From contig NZ_JAAHHW010000075.1 of NCBI RefSeq assembly GCF_010692325.1, forward strand, positions 1 through 33,609: a stretch of DNA of 33,609 bases. The letters run 5' to 3'. The position numbers and the translations under genes were made by a program. Shown in pieces: positions 5,896 through 33,483 of the stretch. The DNA is from Moorena sp. SIO3I8. GTDB taxonomy: Bacteria > Cyanobacteriota > Cyanobacteriia > Cyanobacteriales > Coleofasciculaceae. The first letter of the stretch is position 1. Each line of letters starts with the position of its first letter. Under the pieces are notes generated by a model. The model saw only the letters and a program-made list of their open reading frames with translations. It searched no databases and was not told where the DNA came from.

Positions 5896-8295
5896 ATGGA
5901 CGACGATTTGGCTGTGAAAATAAGGCGTGCAGGCATGAAAGACAGTTTAGATCAGATGAGCGAGAATATACCAAAATTTTCTACCTTAGTAGACCTGCTA
6001 CGTTACCGAGCAATACACCAGCCGGATCAGATCATCTATTCATTTCTACTGAACGGGGAAACCCCAGACCGCTACCTTACCCATCAACAGTTAGACAACC
6101 ACGCCCAAGCGATCGCATCCGAGCTTCTACACCAAAACGCAAAAGGGGAGCGAGCTTTGCTACTCTATCCACCCGGTTTAGAGTTTATCACAGCTTTCTT
6201 CGGCTGTTTGTATGCGGGAGTGTTAGCCGTTCCCGCTTATCCCCCCCGCTCCAATCAAAATTTGTCCAGGCTAGAGGCAATTGTGGCAGATGCTCAGGCC
6301 AAATTTGCCCTCACTACTACCCCTCTATTAGAGAAAATAGAGACTCAGCTAGCTGAAAATCCCGCCAACAATCAACTGAAGTGGCTGGCAACTGACAATC
6401 TGCCTACGCACCACGAATCAGATTGGCAGCACCCGGACTCTACACAGAATACTTTGGCTTTTCTACAGTACACCTCTGGCTCAACGGGTAAACCCAAAGG
6501 AGTAATGGTTAGCCACGGGAATTTGTTATATAACTCAGCTTTGATCAATCAGTGTTTCCAAGATACACCCCAAAGCAGAGGATTGTCTTGGTTACCCGCT
6601 TACCATGATATGGGACTGATTGGTGGCATCCTACAACCCCTTTATGTTGGTCTTCCCATCATCCTGATGGCTCCAGTAGATTTCCTCCGCAAGCCTTACC
6701 GCTGGCTAAAGGCAATTTCCAAATACCAGGTGACTACCAGTGGTGCTCCGAATTTTGCCTATGAGCTGTGTGTGCAGAAAATTACGGCTAAGCAATTAGA
6801 AGCCCTAGACCTGAGCAGCTGGCAAATGGCCTTTACCGGTGCTGAGCCAGTTAGAGCCTCAACATTAGAGCGATTTGCTCAAAAATTTGCCCCTTTTGGT
6901 TTCCGTCGGGAAGCATTTTACCCCTGTTATGGCATGGCAGAAACCACATTATTAGTAACTGGAGGCTTGAAAGACCAACCTCCAGTGGTAAGGGAATTTG
7001 AAGGGCAAGCTCTTGAACAAAATCGAGTGGTTCCCCTGCCAGAAAATCGTCTCAATCAGTCTAATGGTCAGTCTAATGGTCAGTCTAATGGTAATGTGGC
7101 GACTCGAATCCTGGTCGGGTGTGGGCGGACTTGGTTAAATGAAAAAATTGCGATCGCATGCCCCCAATCCCTTACCCAGGTTGAAGCAGGTGCTGTCGGA
7201 GAGATTTGGGTAAAAGGTCCAAGTGTTGCTCAAGGCTATTGGAATCAACCAGAGGTGACGGAAAAAACCTTTAATGCTTATCTAGCTGATACTGGTTTAG
7301 GACCATGGCTGCGTACTGGTGATTTAGGATTTATCCAGGATGGCGAGTTGTTTGTAACAGGTCGTCTGAAGGATTTAATTATTATCCGGGGTCGCAACCA
7401 TTATCCCCAAGATATAGAATTGACGGCGGAAAAGAGTCATCCGGCTCTTCGCCCTGCCTATGGCGCAGCTTTTTCTGTGGAAGTCGGACAGGCTGAGCAA
7501 TTGGTGATTGTCCAAGAAGTCTCCAGGAATTACCTTCGGAAACTAGATGTAGATGAAGTGGTTGAAGCAATCCGCAGTGCCATCTCCCAAGAGTACCAGC
7601 TTCAAGTTTATGCTGTGTTATTGCTCAAGACCAATAGTATTCCCAAGACATCCAGTGGCAAAGTACAGCGCCATGCTTGTCGAGCTGGATTTCTAAACAA
7701 TACCTTGACAGTTGTAGGGCAATCGAGGTTGGGGCAACACCCAACCATTGCCCCAACCAAACCAGAAAAAGAACCCACTACTAATACTATCGGCAAAGCG
7801 CAAACCCGGCATACACTTCAAAAGTGGATAGTAAATTGGCTAGCGCGAGAAACAAAACTGCCTGCCGGGTCTATTAACATCAGCAAGTCTTTTGCTGATT
7901 ATGGTCTAGATTCAGTAACAGCAGTCGAATTAGCTGATGATCTCGAAGAATGGTTAGGGGTGCCTCTGTCTCCGACACTGGCGTATGATTATCCCAATAT
8001 CGAGTCCCTTGCCCAATATCTGGCTCAAGAAAGTCAAAAAAGCAACTCAAACCAGGAGGACAGCCCAAGAAAAATCGAACCGAGAGTTTTGAGTGCAGGT
8101 ACTGAGATGCAACAATTATGGGAGGCACAGTTCCAGAATCTGGATCGGTTCACCTCGACACCCTTTTATCGTTCACCGGTGACGGTTCAATCGATTTCCT
8201 CCAGTGGTGATCAAGAGGTAGACCAACTCTTAGCTGAGTTGGAAATGCTCTCAGAAGCACAAATCCAAGAAATTCTGGGAAAACCCATCAAATAA
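5896..8295 (+). CDS. ols: Olefin synthase loading protein: fatty acyl-AMP ligase (FAAL) - acyl carrier protein
   Basis: This 799-residue protein activates a free fatty acid as acyl-AMP and loads it on its own carrier domain, the first step of the terminal-alkene (Ols) pathway. The FAAL domain (about 25-610) has the P-loop-like LQYTSGSTGKPKG (190-202), CYGMAE (344-349), RTGD (473-476) and the catalytic Lys589 in SSGKVQRH. Its sequence follows long-chain FAALs rather than CoA ligases. The ACP (about 640-710) has GLDSV with phosphopantetheine Ser673. The C-terminal tail (about 765-799: VDQLLAELEMLSEAQIQEIL) looks like a helical docking segment. The start at 5896 is the first ATG; 5935 and 5956 are alternatives. 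Residues ~388-399 are a threefold QSNG repeat. The megasynthase follows after 11 bp, so the two form an operon. In Synechococcus PCC 7002 both parts are one protein. Confidence 0.95.
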   Translation: MDDDLAVKIRRAGMKDSLDQMSENIPKFSTLVDLLRYRAIHQPDQIIYSFLLNGETPDRYLTHQQLDNHAQAIASELLHQNAKGERALLLYPPGLEFITAFFGCLYAGVLAVPAYPPRSNQNLSRLEAIVADAQAKFALTTTPLLEKIETQLAENPANNQLKWLATDNLPTHHESDWQHPDSTQNTLAFLQYTSGSTGKPKGVMVSHGNLLYNSALINQCFQDTPQSRGLSWLPAYHDMGLIGGILQPLYVGLPIILMAPVDFLRKPYRWLKAISKYQVTTSGAPNFAYELCVQKITAKQLEALDLSSWQMAFTGAEPVRASTLERFAQKFAPFGFRREAFYPCYGMAETTLLVTGGLKDQPPVVREFEGQALEQNRVVPLPENRLNQSNGQSNGQSNGNVATRILVGCGRTWLNEKIAIACPQSLTQVEAGAVGEIWVKGPSVAQGYWNQPEVTEKTFNAYLADTGLGPWLRTGDLGFIQDGELFVTGRLKDLIIIRGRNHYPQDIELTAEKSHPALRPAYGAAFSVEVGQAEQLVIVQEVSRNYLRKLDVDEVVEAIRSAISQEYQLQVYAVLLLKTNSIPKTSSGKVQRHACRAGFLNNTLTVVGQSRLGQHPTIAPTKPEKEPTTNTIGKAQTRHTLQKWIVNWLARETKLPAGSINISKSFADYGLDSVTAVELADDLEEWLGVPLSPTLAYDYPNIESLAQYLAQESQKSNSNQEDSPRKIEPRVLSAGTEMQQLWEAQFQNLDRFTSTPFYRSPVTVQSISSSGDQEVDQLLAELEMLSEAQIQEILGKPIK
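7057..7092 (+). repeat. Tandem repeat 3 x 12 bp in the FAAL gene
   Basis: Three perfect copies of cagtctaatggt encode QSNG three times in a surface loop between adenylation motifs. The repeat is in frame and copy-number change would stay in frame. Confidence 0.95.
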
Positions 8296-8306
8296 TTCCT
8301 AGATCT

Positions 8307-11300
8307 ATGTTTCGATCTATGTTGCCAGTGGATGATATTGCTAAGCGGATTGCCAATCTCTCCCCCGAAAAACGCGCCCTTCTTGAGTTGCAGCTGCAAA
8401 AAAGGAAAGGGTTAAAAGAACCTATTGCTATTATCGGGATTGGCTGCCGCTTTCCAGGTGCCTCTTCCCCAAACTCCTTCTGGCAACTGCTCAAAAATGG
8501 TGTTGATGCTATTACTGCAGTGCCACCAGACCGTTGGGATATCCAGAAATTTTACGATGCTGATCCCACAGCACCAGGCAAAATGTATTGCCGTTATGGT
8601 GGTTTTCTGGCCCATGTTGATCAATTTGATCCAGAATTCTTTGGCATTGCTCCCCGGGAAGCTACCTATATCGACCCCCAGCAGCGACTACTGTTGGAAG
8701 TAATTTGGGAAGCACTAGAGGATGCAGGCCAAGTGCCTAGCCGAATCAGTGGTAGCCAAACGGGGGTCTTTGTTGGCATTTCTACTCATGATTATGGTCA
8801 GCTGCTCCTCCAAACTCCAGAGGTGGTAGATACCTATACCAATACTGGTGTAGCTTCCACTATGGCAGCTAATCGCATTTCCTACCTACTGAATTTAAAA
8901 GGGCCAAGTCTAACGGTTGATACCGCTTGCTCCTCATCCCTAGTTGCTGTTCATTTGGCTTGTCAGAGTATCTGGAATGGTGAGTCAACCGTAGCCATAG
9001 CAGGGGGAGTGAATTTGATGCTAACCCCAGTGGTGACGGTTGGGTTAAGTAAGTTAACGGCTTTATCTCCTGATGGTCGCTGTAAGGCATTTGATGCCCG
9101 TGCCAATGGCTTTGTCAGGGGCGAGGGGGCTGGGGTGATAGTAGTAAAGCCCCTATCCAAAGCCCTGATCGATAAAGATCCAATTTATGCTGTGATTCGA
9201 GGCAGTGCGGTGAACCAAGATGGGCGCACTAATGGGCTAACTGCTCCCAATCGAGACGCTCAGGAAGCTGTTCTAGTCTCGGCCTACCAGCACGCGGGCA
9301 TTTCACCGTCAGATGTGCAGTATGTAGAAACCCATGGCACCGGAACCCTACTGGGAGACCCGATTGAAGCGATGGCCTTGGGAAATGTCCTAAAACGCGC
9401 TCGCAAAGCGGTTCCAAAGGAACATCGCTCTGACAATAACTCTGATAATAACTCTGATAACTACGGTGCGTTATCAACCCATCCTACCAACAAGCCTGTT
9501 GCGATTGGCTCGGTCAAATCTAATATCGGTCATCTAGAAGCAGCTGCTGGTATTGCTAGTTTGATCAAAGTCGCCCTATCCCTCAAGCAGCAAGAACGTT
9601 TACCCAGCCTCCATTTCCAGGAGCCAAATCCCCACATTCCCTTTGAGCAACTATCCCTGCAAGTACAGCAGCAAGGGGAGCCTTGGCCATGGGATGTGAT
9701 TCCACCATTTGCTGGTGTAAGTTCTTTCGGTTTTGGAGGAACCAATGCTCATGTGGTGCTACAAGGAGCGCCAGAGTTGACAAAAGCGACAAGTAATGAT
9801 AGAGACCAAAACGATCAAGAGCAAAACGATCATCTATTTACCTTGTCTGCCAAAACAGCAACCGCTCTGCAAACCCTAGGAAAGCGATACATAGACTTCA
9901 TAGCATCTGAGCCATCAAGCACACTGGCAGATATTTGTTTGACCAGCAATAAAGGGCGATCGCATTTTAACTATCGTCTAGCCCTCCTAGTCCAATCCAC
10001 TGACCAGTTGCAGCAACAACTGACCAAGTTGACAGAAAGGGAAACCATTTCGGAGAAAATAGCACAAAATAGCCCTACTCCCCCCGAAATAGTTTTCCTC
10101 TTCACTGGTCAAGGCTCTCAGTATAGTGGTATGGGACGGCAACTTTACGAAACCCAACCAATATTTGCAGGCTATCTCGACCAATGCGCCGAAATTCTGC
10201 AATCCTATTTACAAAAACCCTTACTGGATGTCCTGTATGGGGAAATCTTTAGCGACAACAGTGACAACTCCACATTATTAAATCAAACGGCCTACACCCA
10301 ACCGGCATTATTTGCTCTAGAATACTCCCTGGCTCAGTTATGGCGGTCTTGGGGAATCGAACCAACTGTGGTGATGGGTCATAGTGTTGGGGAATATGTG
10401 GCAGCAACTGTAGCAGGAGTCTTTAGCTTAGAAGATGGGCTAAAGCTAATTGCTGAAAGAGCGCGTTTGATGCAACAGTTGCCAGAAGGTGGTGAAATGG
10501 CGGTGGTTTTGACCAATGAGCAGCAGGTCACTGAGGCAATTCAATCCCTATCCGAAAAAGTCTCAATCGCTGCCATTAACGGTCCGGAAAATATTGTGAT
10601 TTCTGGGGAAAGTCAGGCCGTTCAAACCGTGATAGCCCGACTACGCTCTCAAAAGGTCAAATCACTAAAGTTGCCAGTCTCTCATGCCTTCCATTCTGCC
10701 CTCATGGAACCAATGGTGGGAGATTTTGCTCAGGTATTATCGGAAATATCCCTACATCCCCCGCAAATAGAGATAATCTCGAATGTAACTGGACAATTAG
10801 CCACTGCTGAGATAGCTACGACCGAGTATTGGTGTGACCATGTGCGTGGGTCCGTGAAATTTTACCAGAGCATGGAAACCCTTTATCAAGAGGGTTATCA
10901 TCTGTGTGTGGAAGTAGGACCGAAGCCTAGCCTATTGGGCATGGGCAAAGCGTGTTTACCGAAAGGAAAGCTCACAGCTATACCAAGTTTGCGCCCAGGA
11001 AAACCAGATAGTCGGCAAATGCTGGAAAGTTTGGCAAGCCTATATAAACATGGCGCATCAGTAGACTGGGGAAGATTCCATCAGCATAACCCCCGTCGCC
11101 TAATTTCCCTACCCACTTATCCTTTTGAACGGCAACGGTATTGGCTAGATACCACTTCAGTAAAACCATTATCCCCGATTTCCTATGGTCAACTCTCCAC
11201 TCCCTCCTATCGGGATTGGTTGTATGAAATAGCATGGCAACCTAAGGATGTAGATTCATCTGATATATCAGTAGATATATCTAAATCTAGTACAACTTGG

Positions 11301-14300
11301 TTGATTTTTGCCGATAAAGAGGGCTTTGGAGAAACATTTGGAGAAACATTAGTTCAACAGCTGGAAGAAAAATGTGTTGACAAAGCGGTTCCAAAGGAAC
11401 ATCGCGTTTTGCTAATTTCCCCTGGCTCAAGCTATGAACAATTACAAGTAAACCATTACCAAATTAACCCAGCACAACCGCAACACTTTCAGCGTCTTTT
11501 AGATCAAGAAGTCGAATCTCTAAACGCAACATCTGTGATTGTGGTTCATATGTGGAGTTTAGATACTCCCGCACTGGACGAGTTTCAAACATTTCCCCTA
11601 GACGCCACCTTAGAAAACGGTTGTGGTAGTGTCTTGCATCTGCTGCAAGGGTTAGTCAAAGCAGAATTAGCTCAATCCCCTCGTCTGTGGTTAGTTACCG
11701 AAGGCACACAACCGGTAGGTAAGAGGAAAAAATCTTTACAGATTGCTCAGTCTCCCCTATGGGGTTTAGGTGCAGTTATTGCCCAAGAACATCCAGAAAT
11801 CTGGGGAGGGATAATAGACCTAGAACCAAGTCAAGACTCAGCACTGAGCAATGAGGAGCACTACCAAGAGCAATCATTAATGCTGCTCAACCAGATATTA
11901 CAGCCACAGGGAGAAAACCAAATTGCTTTGAGGGATGGACAAGCCTATGTGCCTCGCCTGATTCATCAACAGCAACAGTCCCAACCCCCCGCTTTACCAT
12001 TGCAGCTAAAACCAGATAGCACCTACTTAATTACCGGTGGTTTGGGGTCACTGGGGTTAAAGGTAGCTGAATGGATGGTCGATAAGGGCGCAAGGTATTT
12101 AGTACTGGTAGGACGAAGCGAACCAAATCCTAGGGCGTCAGAAATAATTGGGCAATTAGAAGCACAAGGTGTGATGGTGGTCCTCGAGCAGGTGGATGTA
12201 TCCCAGGAAGCACAAGTTAGGGACTGTCTCAACAGAATTCAGGTTTCCCTACCCCCCCTCAAAGGAATTATCCATGGTGCAGGGGTCCTAGAGGATGGGG
12301 TGCTGTTGCATCAAGATTGGGCAAAATTTGCCAAGGTGATGAAGCCGAAAGTTGAGGGAGCCTGGAATTTACACAGGTTGACTCAGGAGATGGCCATAGA
12401 CTTATTTGTACTATTTTCTTCCGCTACTTCTATCCTAGGTACCCCTGGTCAAGGAAACTATTCCGCAGCTAACCGATTTTTAGATAGCCTCAGCCATTAT
12501 CGACAACAGCAAGGTGCAAGCGCTTTAAGTATTAATTGGGGACCTTGGGCTGAGATGGGTTTAGCCGCTGGCGTCGGGAAACGGATGGCAATGCTGGGAA
12601 TCGAGCCGATTCAAGCACCACAGGGATTACAGATACTCGAACAACTTCTGGCACAAGATCGGGCTCAGGTGGGGGTATTACCGGTGGAGTGGTCAAAGTT
12701 AAAAGAACGACTACCGGTAGAGTTACCGTTATTCCTATCAGAGGTAATCACAACAGAAACACTACCGCCTCAGGGGGATCGGGAAAACGACAATTCTGGG
12801 ATTTTTGATCAACTGCTCGGTAGTACAACAACCCAACGGGAAGCGTTATTAAAAGATTACCTTAAGCAACAGATTGCTAAGGCTTTAGGGATAAGTCGGG
12901 AAATCTCAGGGTCGAGCAACCTGATGGATTTGGGTGCTGATTCCTTGATGATTGTAGAAGTACTCAATGCCTGTAAGAAAGACCTGAAGATAACGCTTTA
13001 TCCTAGGGAGTTTTATGAGCGACCAACGATTACAGCTCTAGCTGAGTACTTGGCTTTGGAGATGGAACGGCTTCATCAGCCCCAGCCAACCCAAACCTCA
13101 TTGACCACTACTAGTCTCTCAGATATTAAGAATTGGGCTAATCCTTGGGCATGGAACAATAGCGAACGCAAATTTACCAAACCCACCCAGCGCAATCGGA
13201 GCATGGTGTTTGTGCTATCTAGCCCTCGGTCAGGCTCCACCTTACTGCGGGTGATGCTAGCTGGTCATCGGGATTTATTCTGTCCACCAGAATTACACCT
13301 ATTGCCCTTTGAAACGATGGCTGAGCGCAATCAATCCTTGGGTTCAACTCACTTAGGAGAAGGGTTAGCGCGAGCTTTCATGGAAATTATGAACCTAGAT
13401 GCCCAAGCCAGTACAACACTGGTGGAGGAGATAACCCAGCAAGACTGGTCAATTCAGAAGGTTTATGGCAGGTTACAGGAACTAACGGGTAAACGTACTC
13501 TTGTGGATAAGTCTCCTACCTATGCTGGCAGTATTGAAACCCTAAGGCACGCGGAAGATTTATTTGAAGAAGCGAAGTATATTCATCTGGTACGTCATCC
13601 CTATGCGGTAATTGATTCCTTCGTGAAAAATCGGATGGATAAAATCTTTGGTATTGATGAGGTAGACCCTTATTGGCTAGCAGAGGAAGTTTGGACAACC
13701 TGTAACCGTAATATCCTAGATTTCTTCGAGGAAATTGCACCATCCAATCATCATTTAGTGTATTACGAGGAACTAGTCAAGCAACCTGCTAAGGTGATGG
13801 CAAGGTTGTGTGAGTTTCTCGGTATTCCTTTTGATGAGGCGGTTTTACAGCCTTATCAAGGCCAGCGGATGACCGATGGAATTCATCCCCAATCCCTACC
13901 GGTAGATGACCCCAATTTCCGCAACCATAAGCAAATTGATTCGGCTTTGGGAGAAGTTTGGCAGCAAATCCAGCTCCCCCAGCCTTTAGGGAAATTTGCC
14001 CAAGAAGTAGCGACACGGTTGGATTATCAATTGCCGTTACTGGTTGAACCTTCAGCCCAACCAGCTAATGTTGAACTTGAAGCGATGCAAGAGTCTTATC
14101 TAGACGTGCGGGGTTTACAGCTTTGTCTGTGTAGTTGGGGTCCGGTGGATGGAGATTTAATCCTATGTATCCATGGTGTTTTAGAACATGGAGCGGCTTG
14201 GGAAGAAATTGCTGGTCCCTTGGCAAGGATGGGATATCGAGTCGTTGCACCCGACCAGCGAGGCCATGGACGTTCCCAGCATGTGGGGATGGGAGGGTCT

Positions 14301-14975
14301 TATCAATTAATCGATTACTTGGGGGATTTGGATGCGATCGCTTTTGGCACGGCAGAGCCAAACGCGATCGCACTTACAGACCAGCCATTTATTCTAGTGG
14401 GTCATTCCATGGGGGCTGTGGTTGCTGCCACCTTTGCCAGTGTCAGACCGGAAAAGGTCAAATCTTTACTATTGCTGGAGCCGGTGCTACCAGGGGAAGG
14501 GAAGGAAGATGAAACAGCTCAACAGTTGGCAACCCACCTAGATTATCTAGCATCCCCACCCCAACACCAGGTCTTTGGGAATATCGAAGCTGCTGCTAAT
14601 CGTCTGCGCCGCTTAACCCCCAACCTCTCTGAAGAATTAGCATTAAAACATGCTGAGCGACTTACGGAACCTGGTGATGGTGGTGTACGCTGGCGCTGGG
14701 ATCCAAGACTGCAAATTCGTACGGGAATTGGTTTAAGTGGAACAGCGTTTAATCGAGATAAATACACACAGCTACTTCGTCAAATTAAAGCTCCCACTAC
14801 CTTAGTTTATGGAAATAATAGTAACTTTAACCGAGCCGAAGACCTAGCCTTACAACAAGCTGCCATACCTCACGCTCAAACAGTAAAACTATCAGGAGGA
14901 CATAACCTCCATGTTGATGCACCAGATGCTATAGTTGCAATTATCGCCAACAACCGATTAAAGCTGAAAAATTAA
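8307..14975 (+). CDS. ols: Olefin synthase megasynthase: KS-AT-KR-ACP-sulfotransferase-thioesterase
   Basis: This 2222-residue modular type I PKS extends the loaded acyl chain once and releases a 1-alkene. Domains in order: N-terminal docking-like helices (1-30); KS (37-460; Cys208 in DTACSSS, His343 in ETHGTGT, His409 in NIGHLEA); AT (592-880; Ser693 in GHSVGE, His796 in HAFHS, the malonyl-CoA type); KR (about 1110-1420; GGLGSLG at 1244, Ser1372, Tyr1385, LED motif suggesting B-type); ACP (Ser1546 in GADSL); PAPS-dependent sulfotransferase (about 1630-1860; SSPRSGSTLL at 1638); thioesterase (about 1925-2222; Ser2034 in GHSMG, Glu2058, His2199). The Ser-Glu spacing of 24 equals that of CurM thioesterase, and Arg2138 fits its sulfate-binding Arg. 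The enzyme sulfates the beta-hydroxyl, then hydrolysis triggers decarboxylation and sulfate loss. Two copies of a 25-bp palindromic repeat sit in frame. ATG 8322 is an alternative start. Confidence 0.96.
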   Translation: MFRSMLPVDDIAKRIANLSPEKRALLELQLQKRKGLKEPIAIIGIGCRFPGASSPNSFWQLLKNGVDAITAVPPDRWDIQKFYDADPTAPGKMYCRYGGFLAHVDQFDPEFFGIAPREATYIDPQQRLLLEVIWEALEDAGQVPSRISGSQTGVFVGISTHDYGQLLLQTPEVVDTYTNTGVASTMAANRISYLLNLKGPSLTVDTACSSSLVAVHLACQSIWNGESTVAIAGGVNLMLTPVVTVGLSKLTALSPDGRCKAFDARANGFVRGEGAGVIVVKPLSKALIDKDPIYAVIRGSAVNQDGRTNGLTAPNRDAQEAVLVSAYQHAGISPSDVQYVETHGTGTLLGDPIEAMALGNVLKRARKAVPKEHRSDNNSDNNSDNYGALSTHPTNKPVAIGSVKSNIGHLEAAAGIASLIKVALSLKQQERLPSLHFQEPNPHIPFEQLSLQVQQQGEPWPWDVIPPFAGVSSFGFGGTNAHVVLQGAPELTKATSNDRDQNDQEQNDHLFTLSAKTATALQTLGKRYIDFIASEPSSTLADICLTSNKGRSHFNYRLALLVQSTDQLQQQLTKLTERETISEKIAQNSPTPPEIVFLFTGQGSQYSGMGRQLYETQPIFAGYLDQCAEILQSYLQKPLLDVLYGEIFSDNSDNSTLLNQTAYTQPALFALEYSLAQLWRSWGIEPTVVMGHSVGEYVAATVAGVFSLEDGLKLIAERARLMQQLPEGGEMAVVLTNEQQVTEAIQSLSEKVSIAAINGPENIVISGESQAVQTVIARLRSQKVKSLKLPVSHAFHSALMEPMVGDFAQVLSEISLHPPQIEIISNVTGQLATAEIATTEYWCDHVRGSVKFYQSMETLYQEGYHLCVEVGPKPSLLGMGKACLPKGKLTAIPSLRPGKPDSRQMLESLASLYKHGASVDWGRFHQHNPRRLISLPTYPFERQRYWLDTTSVKPLSPISYGQLSTPSYRDWLYEIAWQPKDVDSSDISVDISKSSTTWLIFADKEGFGETFGETLVQQLEEKCVDKAVPKEHRVLLISPGSSYEQLQVNHYQINPAQPQHFQRLLDQEVESLNATSVIVVHMWSLDTPALDEFQTFPLDATLENGCGSVLHLLQGLVKAELAQSPRLWLVTEGTQPVGKRKKSLQIAQSPLWGLGAVIAQEHPEIWGGIIDLEPSQDSALSNEEHYQEQSLMLLNQILQPQGENQIALRDGQAYVPRLIHQQQQSQPPALPLQLKPDSTYLITGGLGSLGLKVAEWMVDKGARYLVLVGRSEPNPRASEIIGQLEAQGVMVVLEQVDVSQEAQVRDCLNRIQVSLPPLKGIIHGAGVLEDGVLLHQDWAKFAKVMKPKVEGAWNLHRLTQEMAIDLFVLFSSATSILGTPGQGNYSAANRFLDSLSHYRQQQGASALSINWGPWAEMGLAAGVGKRMAMLGIEPIQAPQGLQILEQLLAQDRAQVGVLPVEWSKLKERLPVELPLFLSEVITTETLPPQGDRENDNSGIFDQLLGSTTTQREALLKDYLKQQIAKALGISREISGSSNLMDLGADSLMIVEVLNACKKDLKITLYPREFYERPTITALAEYLALEMERLHQPQPTQTSLTTTSLSDIKNWANPWAWNNSERKFTKPTQRNRSMVFVLSSPRSGSTLLRVMLAGHRDLFCPPELHLLPFETMAERNQSLGSTHLGEGLARAFMEIMNLDAQASTTLVEEITQQDWSIQKVYGRLQELTGKRTLVDKSPTYAGSIETLRHAEDLFEEAKYIHLVRHPYAVIDSFVKNRMDKIFGIDEVDPYWLAEEVWTTCNRNILDFFEEIAPSNHHLVYYEELVKQPAKVMARLCEFLGIPFDEAVLQPYQGQRMTDGIHPQSLPVDDPNFRNHKQIDSALGEVWQQIQLPQPLGKFAQEVATRLDYQLPLLVEPSAQPANVELEAMQESYLDVRGLQLCLCSWGPVDGDLILCIHGVLEHGAAWEEIAGPLARMGYRVVAPDQRGHGRSQHVGMGGSYQLIDYLGDLDAIAFGTAEPNAIALTDQPFILVGHSMGAVVAATFASVRPEKVKSLLLLEPVLPGEGKEDETAQQLATHLDYLASPPQHQVFGNIEAAANRLRRLTPNLSEELALKHAERLTEPGDGGVRWRWDPRLQIRTGIGLSGTAFNRDKYTQLLRQIKAPTTLVYGNNSNFNRAEDLALQQAAIPHAQTVKLSGGHNLHVDAPDAIVAIIANNRLKLKN
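9404..9428 (+). repeat. Palindromic 25-bp repeat, copy 1, in the KS domain
   Basis: The sequence gcggttcc-aaa-ggaac-at-cgc forms a small imperfect hairpin and encodes KAVPKEHR, between the KS motifs GDPIEAMA and NIGHLEA. It is followed by a threefold repeat of about 12 bp encoding SDNN (9429-9464). An identical 25-bp copy lies at 11381. Confidence 0.95.
11381..11405 (+). repeat. Palindromic 25-bp repeat, copy 2, before the KR domain
   Basis: It is identical over 25 bp to the copy at 9404-9428 and is in the same reading frame (KAVPKEHR). It sits in the structural part of the KR region, just after a 12-bp direct repeat (tttggagaaaca, about 11326-11349). Confidence 0.95.
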
Positions 14976-24934: not shown

Positions 24935-26131
24935 TCAACGCTTAGGAGCATTATCAAAAGCACGAGCGATCGCATTCCAGGCTAACTTGGGCTTGAAATC
25001 TGCATCCAGAGGTAGAGGTCGCACTGGGGCACCATCTGAGCGGGGATGGAAGCTACTTAAGTATGTGTAGCGATCGCTAAATCCCCAGGTCACTACTGCA
25101 ATCACTGCTGGCTCATCAAGTACCACAGACAGATAATCTTCATAAGCTTGAGCCACCATGCGATCGCGTACAGTCACATCCTTTGGTAAATTGTCATCTC
25201 TGACATCTAGTTCAGTAATCAAGATTTTAAAACCCATACTCGCCACATCCCGGAGAAATTTCCGCAGGCTTTGGGGGTTAATCCGTTTATTCCCTCGCAA
25301 GTGAGCCTGGATTCCCAAGGCATGACAGGGGGTTCCCTGAGACTTCAACCCCTCTAGTAGCTTCAAGACAGCCCTACGCTTGGCTTGCTCATCACTCGAA
25401 TCATAACTCAGTCCATACTCGTTGTAGAGTAACATTGCCTTGGGGTCAGCAACAGCCGCAATGCGAAAGGCTAGGTCAATGTATTTCGGACCTAAAAATT
25501 TTAACCATGGCGTTTTGCGTAAACCATCTGCCCGTCCTTGGAAGGTAGCGATCGCTTCATTAACAACATCCCAGGAGTGCATTTGTCCAGCATAACGCCC
25601 AGCCACTGTCTTAATATGTCTAACCAAGAACTGTTGAGCGTTTTGGCGATTTACTGTCTCCTCAAACCAAGGGGGTAACGAGATGTGCCAAACTAGGGTA
25701 TGTCCCCGAAACAGCAATCTATGAGTCTGGGCAAAGTCTGCCATCCAATCCCCAACGGTAAAGTCAAACTGATGGGGGTGAGGGCACAGGGGAGGGGAAG
25801 AAGGAGTAGAAATAAACCACTTGAGTCCCCATCCGGGAACCAGCATGGCACACTCTTGAGCAAAACGGGTGGCTAAGGCTGGGTTTGAGGATAAGTCTGG
25901 GAATCGACTCTCGGCTCCATAAATTAATCCTTTTGCCGCCGCACGCTCTTTTAAAGAAGCTCCTTGAGCTACTGCAAAGTCTCGCTTCGGGTCATCAATA
26001 GCTTGAATTTGGTGACTATGTATCATAGATTGACACCTTGTCAGAGGGCCTACACTGGCTAAGCTACCTAAACCCAGTAATAATTCACGTCGTCCAATCA
26101 TTAACTTGTTTTTACTCCTAGAAACCATCAC
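24935..26131 (-). CDS. GH10 family glycoside hydrolase (endo-beta-1,4-xylanase-like)
   Basis: A 398-residue protein. Residues 14-28 (RRELLLGLGSLASVG) form a twin-arginine-like signal, so it is probably exported; ATG 26101 (MIGRRE) is an alternative start. The GH10 barrel shows GHTLVWH (His149), the acid/base Glu192 in WDVVNEA, LLYNEYG (about 234-240), GIQAHL (273-278) and the nucleophile Glu307 in ITELDV. It ends with the WGFSDRYTYL region and the C-terminal KPKLAWNAIARAF helix. The family mostly cleaves xylan or related beta-1,4 glycans. It is the last gene of a run of polysaccharide genes on the minus strand, so here it may trim the cell's own exopolysaccharide. A decayed piece of a second copy lies at 30671. 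Confidence 0.92.
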   Translation of the reverse strand: MMVSRSKNKLMIGRRELLLGLGSLASVGPLTRCQSMIHSHQIQAIDDPKRDFAVAQGASLKERAAAKGLIYGAESRFPDLSSNPALATRFAQECAMLVPGWGLKWFISTPSSPPLCPHPHQFDFTVGDWMADFAQTHRLLFRGHTLVWHISLPPWFEETVNRQNAQQFLVRHIKTVAGRYAGQMHSWDVVNEAIATFQGRADGLRKTPWLKFLGPKYIDLAFRIAAVADPKAMLLYNEYGLSYDSSDEQAKRRAVLKLLEGLKSQGTPCHALGIQAHLRGNKRINPQSLRKFLRDVASMGFKILITELDVRDDNLPKDVTVRDRMVAQAYEDYLSVVLDEPAVIAVVTWGFSDRYTYLSSFHPRSDGAPVRPLPLDADFKPKLAWNAIARAFDNAPKR

Positions 26132-26479: not shown

Positions 26480-27547
26480 CTATTGCAATTTCTTCCTTCT
26501 TTTTCTGGAGTAGCTGGCAATTTCATTGTAGGCATTAATCGTTTGATTGGCTAGTTCTTGCCAATCAAACGCCTCTAGAGGAGCTTGTTCTGGACGGGGA
26601 GTGTTTAATGCCCAATCTAAAGCTTTTTCAATGTCATAATCAGTAATTTCTCCTGTATAGGTATAGACCCATTCTTCACCAACTTGCTCTTGAACTTCAG
26701 GGAGAGCGCCAATTTTAGGAACTAATATGGGTCGGTTAAAAGAGAGGGCTAAGAAAGCACTACCAGAGTTTAAAATCTCGCGGTAGGGCAAAATAACTAA
26801 GTCAGCAGCACTGAAGTACCATTGCATATGGTCTTGGGGTATGAAATCTAGGTTGATTCGCACTCGTTGATCTAGGGCGGATTCCCTTTCAATTTCTGCT
26901 GCTAATTCAGTAAATTCTGGACTACCCACAATGTAGAGTATGGCTTCTGAGTCAAACAACTTTCGGAAAACTCGAATCAATTGAGGAGCATTTTTGTAAG
27001 GTCTAATTCTGCCAAACAAAAGCAATACTTTCGCCGAATTGGTAATTCCTAGGTAATTGCGAGCTTCTTGAGAACTGACTTGATTCGGATACTGCCCTCG
27101 GTAGTGACCATGGGGTACTACAAAACCTGGAATATTCTTTAACTGAGGGAAGCGCTCTTGGGCAGCTTTCATCCCAGTTTTGCTAAGGTTAATGTAACCA
27201 TCCAACTGTCTTGTAAAGACTTTCCAGAACCAAGCCTCTAGTTGCGGGTAAAGCTGTTCATGAGAGGCTAAGTTGTGTACTGTCCAGACAATTTTTGTTC
27301 CCCGCCAGCGAGCCAAAATCATCAAGAATAATAGAGCTAATGTTTTTGCGATCGCTCTGAAGAAGTTAGGTTCATTTAAGTTTCGTTCTGGCCAGTGCCG
27401 ATGCCAGATAGAATAATGATTTATCAGCAATTTTTTAGGAGAAAACTCATGGACATCAACCCCCAAAGTAGCCAGGTGGGTGTAAACTAGCCAGGTATAA
27501 GGGTTTTTGTCACGATCTTTAAAGGCTGGTTGAGCAATAATTTTCAT
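26480..27547 (-). CDS. Glycosyltransferase, GT4-like
   Basis: A 355-residue GT-B glycosyltransferase. The N-terminal half has the acceptor-side fold, with IVWTVHNLASHEQLYP (about 85-100) and a hydrophobic LALLFLMILARW stretch (about 70-81) that can touch the membrane. The C-terminal nucleotide-sugar half starts KVLLLFGRIRPYKNAPQLIRVF and continues with LYIVGSP, INLDFIPQDHMQWYFSAADLVILPYREILNSGSAFLALSFNRPILVP, in which the Glu and SGS region match the GT4 donor site. Donor and acceptor are unknown. It is in the minus-strand polysaccharide locus, between GH10 and a sulfotransferase, and was preceded by a flippase gene of which only a trace remains. Confidence 0.9.
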   Translation of the reverse strand: MKIIAQPAFKDRDKNPYTWLVYTHLATLGVDVHEFSPKKLLINHYSIWHRHWPERNLNEPNFFRAIAKTLALLFLMILARWRGTKIVWTVHNLASHEQLYPQLEAWFWKVFTRQLDGYINLSKTGMKAAQERFPQLKNIPGFVVPHGHYRGQYPNQVSSQEARNYLGITNSAKVLLLFGRIRPYKNAPQLIRVFRKLFDSEAILYIVGSPEFTELAAEIERESALDQRVRINLDFIPQDHMQWYFSAADLVILPYREILNSGSAFLALSFNRPILVPKIGALPEVQEQVGEEWVYTYTGEITDYDIEKALDWALNTPRPEQAPLEAFDWQELANQTINAYNEIASYSRKRRKKLQ

Positions 27548-27581
27548 ATTTCACCTACTCCATTGAGCTTTGGTTAACTTT

Positions 27582-27673
27582 AGAGCTGCCGTTACTTTCA
27601 CGCTACTACCTAAACCTTGAAATCCAGGACCAGTCAAGGTGTCTACCGCAAACTACTTCATAGCTTTAAAAAA
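27582..27673 (-). pseudogene. Remnant of a second flippase (wzx-like) gene
   Basis: This intergenic segment aligns with 31195-31286 inside the intact flippase gene, with about 14 differences in 92 bases by eye (about 85%). Reading on the minus strand gives FAVDTLTGPGFQGLGSSVKVTAAL, close to FAADTLTGAGFQGLRSSIQVTAAL of the intact protein. It carries stops and no flanking flippase sequence. It sits exactly where a flippase gene would be expected between a glycosyltransferase and a sulfotransferase gene. Confidence 0.8.
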
Positions 27674-27685
27674 ACGTAAACATTC

Positions 27686-28615
27686 TCAGGTTTCTAGTGA
27701 CCAGAATTGATCAGACTGATAAAACGGTAGATCGAAGAGTTTAACATAATTACGCACAACCTCGACTTCAGATTGGGTCATCGTTTGTTTCCATTTATTT
27801 ATTTGTTGGTTGCTTATACGTACCTTGGAATAACGACCAGGTATATTGTTAGTTGAACTCTGGAGTACATGCTTTTCTACCCGCCTATTCCATGGCAATT
27901 CAAACTGCTCAAATAGCTGTTTGAACTTACCAATAGGGTCTAAGCATAAGTCCTCATAAAAGACCAATAACCATTCAGGATTTCGAGACAATGCATCGGC
28001 TACAACACGATGTCTTGCTGCCCAGATAGCTGCAAATATTTCTATTGGCGTTTTTGCTGCCTCTATCACTGAGCGGTAGGGTTCGAGATGATCTTCAAAT
28101 AAGCTAGATTGATGTAATAAAGTATCTCGCGAAAGCTCAGCAGGAGTTTCTTTGTTAATTTCTGATAATACGGTAGGGCAAGGATGTCGAACAATTACCA
28201 ATAGTTTGGGATTGTAGCGCTTGAAAACCCACTCGATGGACATCAGAGATGCTACATCTTTCACGATGATTTGATAATTAGGCAGTGCTCTAGCCCAAAA
28301 ACCTCGGTACCAACCGCCTCCAAAAGGTAGACCTTTGAAGACATTATCAAAAGCATTTTCAAGCAAGTCATCTCGCTCACCAGGTCGTGTATATTGGAAC
28401 CATGTGTCCATGTTACCTTTTCCAGTAATAGCTGGATTACATGGCTCGTAGTAGTATATAGCACGATTTGCGGTGGACAATGTTTTCCCGACCCAACTGG
28501 TACCGCTGCGACCATGACCTAAAATCAAAATTGGGCGTTTGCCAACTTGCCAGTGATTCAAAAACCACGAGGTAAGATAGTAGCTGGTCTTAGTAATTAA
28601 ACGTTGTTTTCTCAT
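27686..28615 (-). CDS. Sulfotransferase family protein
   Basis: A 309-residue PAPS-dependent sulfotransferase starting at ATG 28615. The 5'-phosphosulfate loop is ILGHGRSGTSWV (about 31-42). The 3'-phosphate site is VIVRHPCPTVLSEI (about 140-153). YYEPCNPA and WLLVFYEDLCLDP are further family landmarks, the last ahead of the usual C-terminal helices. It has no signal peptide or clear membrane segment, so it acts in the cytoplasm, probably on a lipid-linked sugar or a carbohydrate acceptor. The flanking glycosyltransferases and the flippase suggest it sulfates a repeat unit before export. It is distinct from the second sulfotransferase at 32575. Confidence 0.9.
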   Translation of the reverse strand: MRKQRLITKTSYYLTSWFLNHWQVGKRPILILGHGRSGTSWVGKTLSTANRAIYYYEPCNPAITGKGNMDTWFQYTRPGERDDLLENAFDNVFKGLPFGGGWYRGFWARALPNYQIIVKDVASLMSIEWVFKRYNPKLLVIVRHPCPTVLSEINKETPAELSRDTLLHQSSLFEDHLEPYRSVIEAAKTPIEIFAAIWAARHRVVADALSRNPEWLLVFYEDLCLDPIGKFKQLFEQFELPWNRRVEKHVLQSSTNNIPGRYSKVRISNQQINKWKQTMTQSEVEVVRNYVKLFDLPFYQSDQFWSLET

Positions 28616-28791: not shown

Positions 28792-30027
28792 TCAAGATTT
28801 AGATCGAGCTAACTGGTTATACTTTGAAAGTGAAACCAGAGAATCTATTTCCGAAATCACGCCTTCTATTGCTTTAGAACCAAACAATTCCTCAAGCACA
28901 CCTGGATTAACATTATCCCTGACAGGATGGGACAAAAATCGGATAATTGCTTCTGCAAAGGATGACTTATCCACAGCAATTTCAAAGTAGTGATGAACCT
29001 CTTCTGGTAGACCTGCTATTCCCTGTGGTGTGGAAACAATCGCTCTACCAGAAACCAGCATTTCTAGGGACTTTATACTAACGCCACTCCCAGCGGAAAC
29101 TGGATTAATGAGAACCCGCCCCGACTTGTATACTTCTGCAGAAGACACTGGATTTATTTTCAGATCAACTTCTGGAGTTTCCTCACATAGCTGCCTAACG
29201 TGCTGGACAGGATTTGAACCCGCTATTAAAACAGTAAATGTTGGTAACGCCAAACGTATTATAGGCATAACTTGGGTAATAAACCAGATTATTCCCGCTA
29301 CATTGTTGTCCGAAAAGAGGTTACCCAAAAAAACGATATCATAGACAGGATGGGTGCTTAGTTTATCTCTGGATATTGCTTCCCTATTCTCTTCAGTAAA
29401 CTCAATCAGAGGTGCTAAGTAGCGACCATTTTTCAATCCTTGACTTCTCCAAAAATTTAGGTCATCTAGGGATATATCGTAAAATAAAGTACTCTTTTTT
29501 AGTAAATTTGTTTCATAATTTGCCAAGTTAGACAATGATAAATATCGTTTGAACTTGTTGAACCCTTTGGCAGACGCAAGTTTTCGCTTATAGTACAAAT
29601 GCTCGATATTGTGAGAGCGAATAACCAGCAGCCGATTCAAGTGTTGACTTAACTGACTTGCTACTTCTCCACCGTGAATACCATCTAGGAAGATGACATC
29701 AGGATTAAACGCAGCCACATCAGACAGTAATAGCTTGAATTCTTTACCTCTGACAATTCTAGATGTCACTTCCAAAGGATACTTGAGTAAGTCAATTATC
29801 CGCCGAATAAAAGAGCCGAGTGTCCTTGGAAACTTTATCAAAAAAACTTGCTTGGCATACTTCCTAATTTCCAGGACTTCCTCTGGTTTTGGAGTATGGC
29901 TACACCAGCAGATAACTTGTAGCTCAGTCCCTAAATTAGAGAAAGCTTTTATCCTTCGCCACATGTCTAATCGCGCCCCATGGATGGGCGGATAGGGAAT
30001 ATCATGGCATACTAATGTAATCTTCAT
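28792..30027 (-). CDS. Glycosyltransferase, GT4-like
   Basis: A 411-residue GT-B glycosyltransferase from ATG 30027. It starts MKITLVCHDIPYPPIHGARLDMWRRIKAF, the typical nucleotide-free N-domain with a Gly-Ala/Arg loop. VIFLDGIHGGEVASQL and LLVIRSHNIEHLYY follow. The C-domain begins DIVFLGNLFSDNNVAGIIWFI, with FTVLIAGSNP, and the donor site SSAEVYKSGRVLINPVSAGSGVSIKSLEMLVSGRAIVSTPQGIAGL. This matches the GT4 type with the acidic residue E in the SLEML helix. The donor sugar is not evident. A 176-bp AT-rich gap separates it from the sulfotransferase, so each may have its own promoter. Confidence 0.92.
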   Translation of the reverse strand: MKITLVCHDIPYPPIHGARLDMWRRIKAFSNLGTELQVICWCSHTPKPEEVLEIRKYAKQVFLIKFPRTLGSFIRRIIDLLKYPLEVTSRIVRGKEFKLLLSDVAAFNPDVIFLDGIHGGEVASQLSQHLNRLLVIRSHNIEHLYYKRKLASAKGFNKFKRYLSLSNLANYETNLLKKSTLFYDISLDDLNFWRSQGLKNGRYLAPLIEFTEENREAISRDKLSTHPVYDIVFLGNLFSDNNVAGIIWFITQVMPIIRLALPTFTVLIAGSNPVQHVRQLCEETPEVDLKINPVSSAEVYKSGRVLINPVSAGSGVSIKSLEMLVSGRAIVSTPQGIAGLPEEVHHYFEIAVDKSSFAEAIIRFLSHPVRDNVNPGVLEELFGSKAIEGVISEIDSLVSLSKYNQLARSKS

Positions 30028-30370
30028 AATACGGCTACTCTTACTCTCAGTTGTTTGCTGCTATAGAATTAATCATGATAATTATCAGCACTGACTTGTA
30101 ATTATTCAATAACCTAGATGTTCCATAAATTAGGCAGATTTAAAATGTATAATATCACTATATTATCAATAATAGTTATCCAAAGTTACTACAATTTCCT
30201 ACTTTATATTGACTAGATATATCTAGAACACTATTTAAATACAGCTTAATTTTTTAAGCAATATCAAACGCTTTGAGTAGTTCAGATTTTTGAAAAGATA
30301 TGAATCGTAAATCTGTCGGCAATATCCCCCTTTGTATTCATCGGATCAATATAATAGTCAGGGGTTGGAA

Positions 30371-30503
30371 GCGATGCAGCGCGGTCTTGGGGAGGCAGCG
30401 CGGTCTTGGGGGTCTCCCCCATGAGCGACTGCCGTGGTTTCCACGGGGCTTACAAGGTGCGGACGCAGGTTCCGCACACAGCCCCTCCCCATGAGCGACT
30501 GCA
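30371..30503. repeat. Composite G+C-rich palindromic repeat
   Basis: It contains gcagcgcggtcttggg twice, then gggggtctccccc (self-complementary), catgagcgactgc twice (about 30420 and 30489), ccgtgg-ttt-ccacgg (30433-30447) and gtgcgga-cgcaggt-tccgcac (30457-30477). Several small hairpins stand in series. Related pieces occur at 24699-24770 and 23631-23674. Confidence 0.85.
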
Positions 30504-31022: not shown

Positions 31023-32327
31023 TTAATGTTCCGATTCTTGAAGGCGCTTGCTTCTAGTCACCTCTTGCCGATATAAGACAAACACTAATAGCCATAAGCT
31101 GAGCATCCTCAAGGAATCTGAGGTTAAACTTGACCAGGCAGCTCCCTTCCATGAATACAGAGGAATTAACCAAAGGTTTAACGAAAAGTTCAACAGAGCT
31201 GCCGTTACTTGTATGCTACTACGCAACCCTTGAAATCCAGCACCAGTCAGGGTGTCCGCCGCAAAAAACTGCATGGCTTTAAAAAACGGTATCGGTGCTA
31301 ACCAACGTAAGGCATTGACTACCTCCCTATAGTCATCACCTATAATGTAGGGTACCATTGGAGCGGAGATAAACAACCCGATACCAGCAGCTATTCCGTA
31401 CATACCAGCAATTGGTGATAGACGCTTGGCCAGATTGAGACTTCCCTGGATGCCAGCGGCTCCCTTCTGAAAAAACTTGGCATAGGAAGCCGCTAACAGA
31501 GATTGTACAGGGACAAATGCCACATCAATTAAACGGTATGCAGCAGCATATATACCTGTAGCTTGTAATGTAGAAAGACGCGCTAGCATGGTTTTATCTA
31601 CATTGTTGTTAACCGTTTCAGCACAAAGGTTGAGAGAAAAGTAGAATCCCTGAAGCATCTCCGGCTTGATCTTTGATATTGCCAATTTAGGAGTTCCTAA
31701 CATCCGATGTACCATCAGAAATCCAACCCCAGCTGCTATTGCTGTACTAGCCAGATATAAAGCTCCCCAAACTACAATATCTGATGTCTGAAAGAAGCTG
31801 ACAAAACAAAGTGTTGCCACTAAGTTTTTTAGACTGAGTAAAAAATGAATCTGGGCGGTGTGCTTAAGCTGACTGACCGCGATAAATGCCTGACCAGCGG
31901 TGGCTAAAATTTTCAAAAAGAGTAAGTCAGACAAAAATACCAAAAATATTAGCAGGGGCGACGTTTCTTTAGGTAAAATAGCTGGAGCTATAAGCATAAC
32001 TAAGGCAATTAGCACCAAACTAGAGGTAAAAATCATCAACAGCGCATTGCCCCAGTATTCCTTGAATAAGGCTCGGTTTCTAGAAACATTTTTAATTAAA
32101 ACATCTCCACTCCCCCAGGTGGCGAAAGGGGATATAATCGCCGCTAAAGCCGTCAAACTAGCAAACAGACCATACTGTTGAGCACCGAGGGTACGAGCAA
32201 TCATCACGAAGTAGGCGGCTTGGACAATCATCTTCAGAAATTTAGCCAATAGCATCCACAAGGTGTTACGTACTAGGGATTTCTGAAATATGCCAATGAG
32301 CCTGGATTTGAGGGATTGAAAATTCAT
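31023..32327 (-). CDS. Oligosaccharide flippase (Wzx / MATE-like)
   Basis: A 434-residue polytopic membrane protein from ATG 32327; the frame is open back to a TTG at 32375, but the ATG gives the usual N-terminus. It starts with an amphipathic segment and then helices such as FLKMIVQAAYFVMIARTLGAQQYGLFASL, the classic N-terminal signature of polysaccharide transporters. About twelve hydrophobic stretches follow, for example MIFTSSLVLIALVMLIAPAI and LLIFLVFLSDLLFLKIL. It would flip lipid-linked oligosaccharide units to the periplasmic side for polymerisation. It fits the nearby glycosyltransferase and sulfotransferase genes. A short relic of a second copy lies at 27582. Confidence 0.92.
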   Translation of the reverse strand: MNFQSLKSRLIGIFQKSLVRNTLWMLLAKFLKMIVQAAYFVMIARTLGAQQYGLFASLTALAAIISPFATWGSGDVLIKNVSRNRALFKEYWGNALLMIFTSSLVLIALVMLIAPAILPKETSPLLIFLVFLSDLLFLKILATAGQAFIAVSQLKHTAQIHFLLSLKNLVATLCFVSFFQTSDIVVWGALYLASTAIAAGVGFLMVHRMLGTPKLAISKIKPEMLQGFYFSLNLCAETVNNNVDKTMLARLSTLQATGIYAAAYRLIDVAFVPVQSLLAASYAKFFQKGAAGIQGSLNLAKRLSPIAGMYGIAAGIGLFISAPMVPYIIGDDYREVVNALRWLAPIPFFKAMQFFAADTLTGAGFQGLRSSIQVTAALLNFSLNLWLIPLYSWKGAAWSSLTSDSLRMLSLWLLVFVLYRQEVTRSKRLQESEH

Positions 32328-32574
32328 ATCAAGTAATTTGGAGCATACCTTTTCGCTGCCAGGATTATCTGCCAAGTTGGTAACTGATCGAAAATTATCT
32401 CTGATTACCCAGACTAAGAAGACAATCAGGGAATTGGTATGACTTATACCAAGTTGCCATCAAAGATATTACTATAAAAGTTAGCATCATAATACCTCTG
32501 AAGGCAACTTATATATTATCTGATTTATTCCTGCTTAGATGGCTAATTTTTCATTATCCTCACCCTTAGGCTGA

Positions 32575-33483
32575 CTAGCTGCTTAATCCCACTAATTCTT
32601 TGCTATACCATGCCGATATCTCCCGCCCCAATAATTTGAATAGCTTTTGATTGTCATTGGCATAGATGGTGTAGAGTTTTTGAATCGCTGATGGACTGGG
32701 GCGAAGCTTTTGGTGTTGTAAGGGTAAGCGCTGATCAACACGATTGATCAACCCACGCATAAATGGGAAACGGGTTCCCAGATAACGAGCAATTGGTGAA
32801 CTAGTGCTTTGATGGACTTTCTTAGACTTTTTACTAAAATCAAAGGAAGAATCTATGTCAAGGAATTCACAAACTTTTTTCATAGAATCCTCTGAGTTTT
32901 GAGCAATGTCTTCTTCAAAGACTAGAATTAGCATTTGCTTAGGATCGAAGTATTCATAGTAGGCTTGCAGTTGGCGATAATATCGTCCCATATCGATGAT
33001 GCCATAGCGCTCAACTAGGGGTTGTTTATCACCAATTAATAGGTCATCAAGGTCATAATTTAGAGATATAGCTCCATTTTTGATAAAGTGATTTATAGCA
33101 GCAATGGCTCGTTCAACTGGATTTCTTAGGACTACAATAAGTTTGGCTTCAGGCAATGTCTCGTAGATTAGTCGATGGGAATAGGAAATTTCTTCGAGAG
33201 GGTCATAGTAGACTTTACCCTGGGCATCAGGCAATGGTTCGATCCATAAGTAATTAGGAGTTTTTTCTCCAATTGCTTTTTTCCCATTAACATCAGCAAA
33301 ATGTTTTTTATACCATTCAATACCTTGATTGAGATTATACCTCTTATTAAAGTAATGAATCTCATTTGCAGGTATAAATACCTCAGGATGTTCCCTGAGA
33401 TTATGGGCTAACCAGGTAGTTCCAGCCTTTTGGGCTCCAATGATTAAAAAGTTCGGTAAAGTCACTAACAACTCTCTCGTCAT
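32575..33483 (-). CDS. Sulfotransferase domain protein
   Basis: A 302-residue PAPS-dependent sulfotransferase from ATG 33483, of the heparan-sulfate-sulfotransferase-like type. The 5'-phosphosulfate loop is NFLIIGAQKAGTTWLAHNL (about 11-29). KTPNYLW (about 74-80) follows, and the 3'-phosphate site is LIVVLRNPVERAIAAINHF (about 114-132). The sequence around YYRQLQAYYEYFDPKQMLILVFEE (about 168-191) is also typical. There is no signal peptide. It begins the minus-strand polysaccharide locus, 248 bp before the flippase. It belongs to a different subgroup from the sulfotransferase at 27686, which suggests two different sulfation positions or acceptors. Confidence 0.92.
   Translation of the reverse strand: MTRELLVTLPNFLIIGAQKAGTTWLAHNLREHPEVFIPANEIHYFNKRYNLNQGIEWYKKHFADVNGKKAIGEKTPNYLWIEPLPDAQGKVYYDPLEEISYSHRLIYETLPEAKLIVVLRNPVERAIAAINHFIKNGAISLNYDLDDLLIGDKQPLVERYGIIDMGRYYRQLQAYYEYFDPKQMLILVFEEDIAQNSEDSMKKVCEFLDIDSSFDFSKKSKKVHQSTSSPIARYLGTRFPFMRGLINRVDQRLPLQHQKLRPSPSAIQKLYTIYANDNQKLFKLLGREISAWYSKELVGLSS

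Follow-up and report, generated by a model that had tools for sequence, protein, structure and literature searches.

The window analysed here, 33,609 nucleotides of the Moorena sp. SIO3I8 genome (contig NZ_JAAHHW010000075.1), contains a polysaccharide locus with its genes on the minus strand. ST1 (32575..33483), which encodes a sulfotransferase (Pfam PF00685, E 1.5e-21), lies upstream of FLP (31023..32375), which encodes an intact flippase of the Polysacc_synt family (PF01943, E 3.9e-22). The mechanical open reading frame of FLP runs from 32375, and its likely start is the ATG at 32327, as relatives begin at the corresponding ATG. Between FLP and ST2 (27686..28615), a gene for a sulfotransferase family protein (PF13469, E 1.3e-9) with close homologues in the genus only, is the group 1 glycosyltransferase gene GT1 (28792..30027; PF13692, E 3.7e-13). 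A 138-bp spacer (27548..27685) separates ST2 from GT2 (26480..27547), also a group 1 glycosyltransferase gene (PF13692, E 7.6e-9). Downstream of GT2 lies GH10 (24935..26131), which encodes a glycosyl hydrolase family 10 protein (PF00331, E 7.2e-75), and several outgroup loci likewise have a GH10 homologue close to FLP or GT2. Because the locus contains sulfotransferase genes, its product is probably a sulfated polymer. Elsewhere in the window, at 5896-14975, a gene for an AMP-binding/PP-binding protein (5896-8295) precedes one for a polyketide synthase of 2222 aa, in which ketosynthase, acyltransferase, ketoreductase, carrier, sulfotransferase and alpha/beta-hydrolase domains were recognised; this domain order presumably resembles that of terminal-olefin synthases.

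A flippase gene segment in the spacer upstream of GT2

The 138-bp spacer contains a putative remnant of a PF01943-type flippase gene (27582..27673, minus strand; hereafter the remnant), which in a four-species alignment is homologous to roughly codons 348-378 of FLP, numbered from the ATG at 32327, and carries an in-frame TAG. The first-pass annotation had reported a match of about 92 bp, about 85% identical, to the flippase 3.6 kb away on the same strand. Comparison of 27582-27673 with 31195-31286, the matching segment of FLP, bore this out: 78/92 bases are identical without gaps (84.8%; E 6e-23 genome-wide in the 8.0-Mb assembly), at an offset of 3613 bp on the same strand. The coordinates, strand and peptide that it gave were likewise correct, the peptide DTLTGPGFQGLGSSVKVTAAL being readable on the minus strand with the in-frame TAG a few codons before it. 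Alignment of the spacer with the intact flippase, which it had proposed as a check, thus gave a significant ungapped match far above that of dinucleotide-shuffled versions of the segment (n=200), the best of which reached 47/92 in the window. The runner-up ungapped placement of the segment itself in the window was 41/92 on the same strand, and the best on the opposite strand was 45/92. The remainder of the flippase gene is missing on either side of the 92 bp.

The contrary case raised in the first-pass annotation, a dispersed repeat unrelated to flippases, was ruled out, as the segment matches just two places in its own genome at E 0.001 or better, both in the window, with no dispersed copies. 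A plasmid origin of the segment was also tried, and a search of a plasmid collection gave no match.

The remnant and the intact segment are both present in all four genus genomes, the source genome included, and the remnant always lies at the same spot in the same orientation with the in-frame TAG. A record of Moorena bouillonii PNG, likely one of these four genomes (G001), has the same gene order and the remnant. Because spot and in-frame TAG are shared in 4/4, the remnant is older than the split of the four genus genomes. A 151-bp query matched 5 of the 291 genomes of the order, namely the four genus genomes and G184, in which the match (55 bp at 76%) lies inside the intact flippase. Apart from full genes, a loose tblastn search (E 0.01; 13 flippases against 12 loci) recovered the remnant (L009, L010 and L011), a truncated gene in L091 and two weak matches at 23% identity (L045, E 0.002; L011, E 0.009). 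The same search read the flippase of L092 in several pieces, which may reflect a frame break or an assembly error. A candidate second fossil in cyanobacterium PCC 7702 (L091, flippase piece 9446-9766) was rejected, since the adjoining stretch reads N and masking or a gap truncates the gene.

Rate of change in the remnant

Compared with the copy in the source genome, the remnant differs at 6/92 positions in G001, 6/92 in G002 and 10/92 in G003. At fourfold-degenerate sites the neighbouring genes show divergences of 5.7-11.5% for G001 (five genes), 4.4-7.6% for G002 (four genes) and 12.3-15.0% for G003 (four genes), while the homologous intact segment of FLP differs at 2/92, 1/92 and 1/92 positions, respectively. 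Ten sites vary among the four remnants and are split 3/4/3 over codon positions 1, 2 and 3, giving no periodicity in this small sample; two sites vary in the intact segment across the four genus genomes, both at the third position. The remnant looks dead and non-functional because it changes at about the fourfold-site rate and lacks codon periodicity, while the intact segment is nearly frozen. Two other spacers change at a rate similar to that of the remnant, ST1-FLP by 8.5-11.5% and FLP-GT1 by 6.6 and 12.7% (G001 and G003; many gaps). The features of a pseudogene are found together in the remnant, namely significant homology to an intact family member, a disabled reading frame and near-neutral evolution, the last judged from a small sample in which it is slower than one neighbouring spacer. 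What is left of the segment is probably without function beyond being part of the spacer before GT2.

Flippase genes next to GT2 in other genomes

G004, a genome of the same family and another genus, has a flippase gene (L040 9259-10554; PF01943) directly upstream of a GT2 homologue (8142-9185), with a gap of 73 bp. This pair (L040 8142-10554) is like the Moorena spot in its orientation and in its GT2 homologue, which is 64% identical, but differs in that the flippase is intact, with TGA as its terminal stop, and is the sole match at E 1e-60 in the G004 genome. L100 (Alkalinema) and L115 (a deltaproteobacterial MAG), with GT2 homologues of 51% and 43% identity, respectively, likewise have an open flippase frame immediately upstream of that gene. 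The remnant thus occupies a spot where a flippase occurs in other genomes. Its suggestion that a strain with a full flippase at this spot be sought succeeded in part: none of the four genus genomes has a full second flippase or a longer remnant between ST2 and GT2, and the related genus does have the full gene (G004).

Direct adjacency of flippase and GT2 is not universal, because one gene lies between them in G018 and two in each of G184, G195 and G250. A named survey of 40 GT2 loci found nine in which the available DNA matches a flippase at E 1e-6 or better; among these nine, the match is partial and on the opposite strand in L091 and in pieces in L092, and four (L090, L093, L094 and L095) apparently duplicate genomes already counted under G handles.

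Origin of the remnant

We consider the segment to be a non-functional remnant of a second copy of the flippase gene located immediately upstream of GT2 in the Moorena ancestor, a reading to which we give a probability of roughly 0.77, with the caveat that the surviving sequence is only 92 bp. The decayed second flippase, as the first-pass annotation had it, is supported because of the homology, the spot shared in 4/4 genomes, the near-neutral change and the intact flippase before the GT2 homologue in G004. A flippase would have stood before GT2, with a flippase duplicate present in the stem lineage of the genus, and GT1 and ST2 would have come between the two copies. With one flippase enough, the copy proximal to GT2 would have become redundant, and it would then have lost both ends by deletion and acquired a stop codon.

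That a partial flippase fragment was copied here by illegitimate recombination, so that a full second gene never existed at the spot, is unlikely. It would fit the internal 92 bp, from which both gene ends are absent and in which the match stops sharply on each side; however, an internal piece results equally from deletion at both ends. Random landing, moreover, would not explain why the segment is in the right orientation at the very spot before GT2 at which a related genus carries the complete flippase gene.

The second copy itself appears to have arisen on the genus stem or to have come from a close relative, because the remnants share 80-86% identity with the four flippases of the genus, against 68.5% or less with nine flippases taken from outside it. 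Codon 7 of the segment, which is the TAG of the remnant, has A as its second base in 9/9 outside genes and 4/4 remnants and T in 4/4 intact genus genes. Since the remnant retains the A of the outside genes, this pattern suggests that the remnant and intact copies parted before the A-to-T change. The remnant differs from the intact consensus at 15 of 93 sites (nine third, four first and two second positions), and this third-position bias (9/15) may come partly from the intact branch. Five remnant states are absent from all nine outside genes. In a tree of the 92 bp the remnant joined the long branch of L115 at a support of 34, and its placement is not settled by this tree. A protein tree of 19 full flippases joined the genus genes to G018 (order flippase-x-GT2; support 86/81) and then to G129 (order flippase-GT-GT1; 99/94); it does not tell which of these two arrangements is older.

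Comparison of the two gene sets

The minus-strand order ST1-FLP-GT1 followed by ST2-remnant-GT2 looks like two modules, and the first-pass annotation had proposed duplication of a whole sulfotransferase-flippase-glycosyltransferase module, the second flippase of which then decayed. This proposal did not hold up, and we regard it as highly improbable, because the divergence of the sulfotransferase and glycosyltransferase pairs does not match that of the flippases. No significant similarity was found by blastp between ST1 and ST2 (best E 0.097) or between GT1 and GT2 (best E 0.64), though the members of each pair share Pfam families, whereas the two flippase sequences retain 85% DNA identity. 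The sulfotransferase and glycosyltransferase pairs therefore do not behave as paralogues of similar age, as all members of two such modules should, and module duplication would work only if gene conversion had homogenised the flippase pair long after an ancient duplication.

The distribution of the glycosyltransferases also argues against it. GT1 homologues at E 1e-80 or better are found in 12/291 genomes and GT2 homologues in 17/291, and at this threshold the two occur in different genomes outside the genus, with no such genome having both. Among 20 family genomes, ST2 is confined to the genus at E 1e-40; the 291 order genomes yield five further matches at E 1e-25, which are 27-33% identical. 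Flippase and GT1 are neighbours in L073, L074 and L075 (flippases 46-48% and GT1 about 50% identical), and the flippase frame is open in L073. Moorena appears to join two arrangements that are found apart elsewhere, flippase-GT1 and flippase-GT2, because the GT1 and GT2 lists share no genome outside the genus and the two kinds of neighbours occur separately.

A recombination involving the flippase copies is possible. Because flippase-GT1 (L073, L074 and L075) and flippase-GT2 (G004, L100 and L115) neighbours are found apart in other genomes and follow one another in Moorena, we tentatively suggest that the flippase might have served as a homology anchor, a flippase-GT1-ST2 cassette being spliced in before a resident flippase-GT2 pair with the remnant as the scar; this detailed course of events is doubtful.

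Retention of the segment as a functional element for GT2, such as a leader, promoter or RNA, is the least probable account, for although the four remnants align without any indel, the 34 bp beside GT2 differ at just 1/34, 1/34 and 2/34 positions and the 92 bp change clearly more slowly than the ST2-GT1 spacer (37/164, 39/176 and 27/163; 17-23%), the rate of change of the 92 bp is close to that of fourfold sites, no sigma-70-like promoter was found in 27400-27900 (shuffles average 1.5), and G003 retains the segment despite a GT2 cut to about 33 codons.

Gene remnants and ongoing change in polysaccharide clusters

Gene remnants in polysaccharide clusters are already known. Excerpts of a study of Salmonella O-antigen clusters describe remnants of the polymerase gene wzy that persist in the original position once a different wzy has assumed its role; these remnants are common to related groups, and their degradation by serial deletions is described (PMC3715488). 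Like them, the Moorena remnant appears to be a leftover of a Wzx/Wzy-pathway gene that no longer functions and has stayed where the gene once lay in its polysaccharide cluster. As far as those excerpts go, the Salmonella case concerns a polymerase gene whose replacement lies at another locus (PMC3715488), whereas the Moorena case concerns a flippase gene, is found in a cyanobacterium and has the paralogue within the same cluster, at a distance of about 3.6 kb. We regard the two cases as alike in kind. A literature search for flippase gene remnants in cyanobacterial exopolysaccharide clusters found none, and none of the papers listed by further searches mentioned Moorea or Moorena. The remnant may be taken as a positionally conserved mark of how the Moorena polysaccharide locus was assembled, pointing to a flippase once before GT2 and to GT1 and ST2 already lying between the flippase copies before the four species split. 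Its consequence outside the Moorena locus is small, as an ordinary trace of the rebuilding of polysaccharide clusters.

The gene sequences suggest that alteration of the cluster continues in individual species, which fits the statement in the first-pass annotation that the locus is being trimmed. In G003, about the first 33 codons of GT2 are left (L011 2733-2894), with an in-frame TAA at codon 6 and the GH10 gene close behind. In G002, ST2 is interrupted by a MITE-like element, about 310 bp long, whose inverted ends, read by eye, are GGGGTGACAA...TTGTCACCCC (L010 about 12156-12469). An exact inverted-repeat pattern for this element was found in 0/4 genomes, the allowed gap (150-179) being shorter than the element needs. 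Among the candidates scored, the element has 56 to 80 matches per genome in 4/4 genus genomes, most of those listed being partial, and in G002 two additional matches cover its full length at 92%. The window itself has part of this dispersed repeat at 30368-30442, within the spacer of about 1 kb between FLP and GT1, where it is 97% identical over 75 bp.
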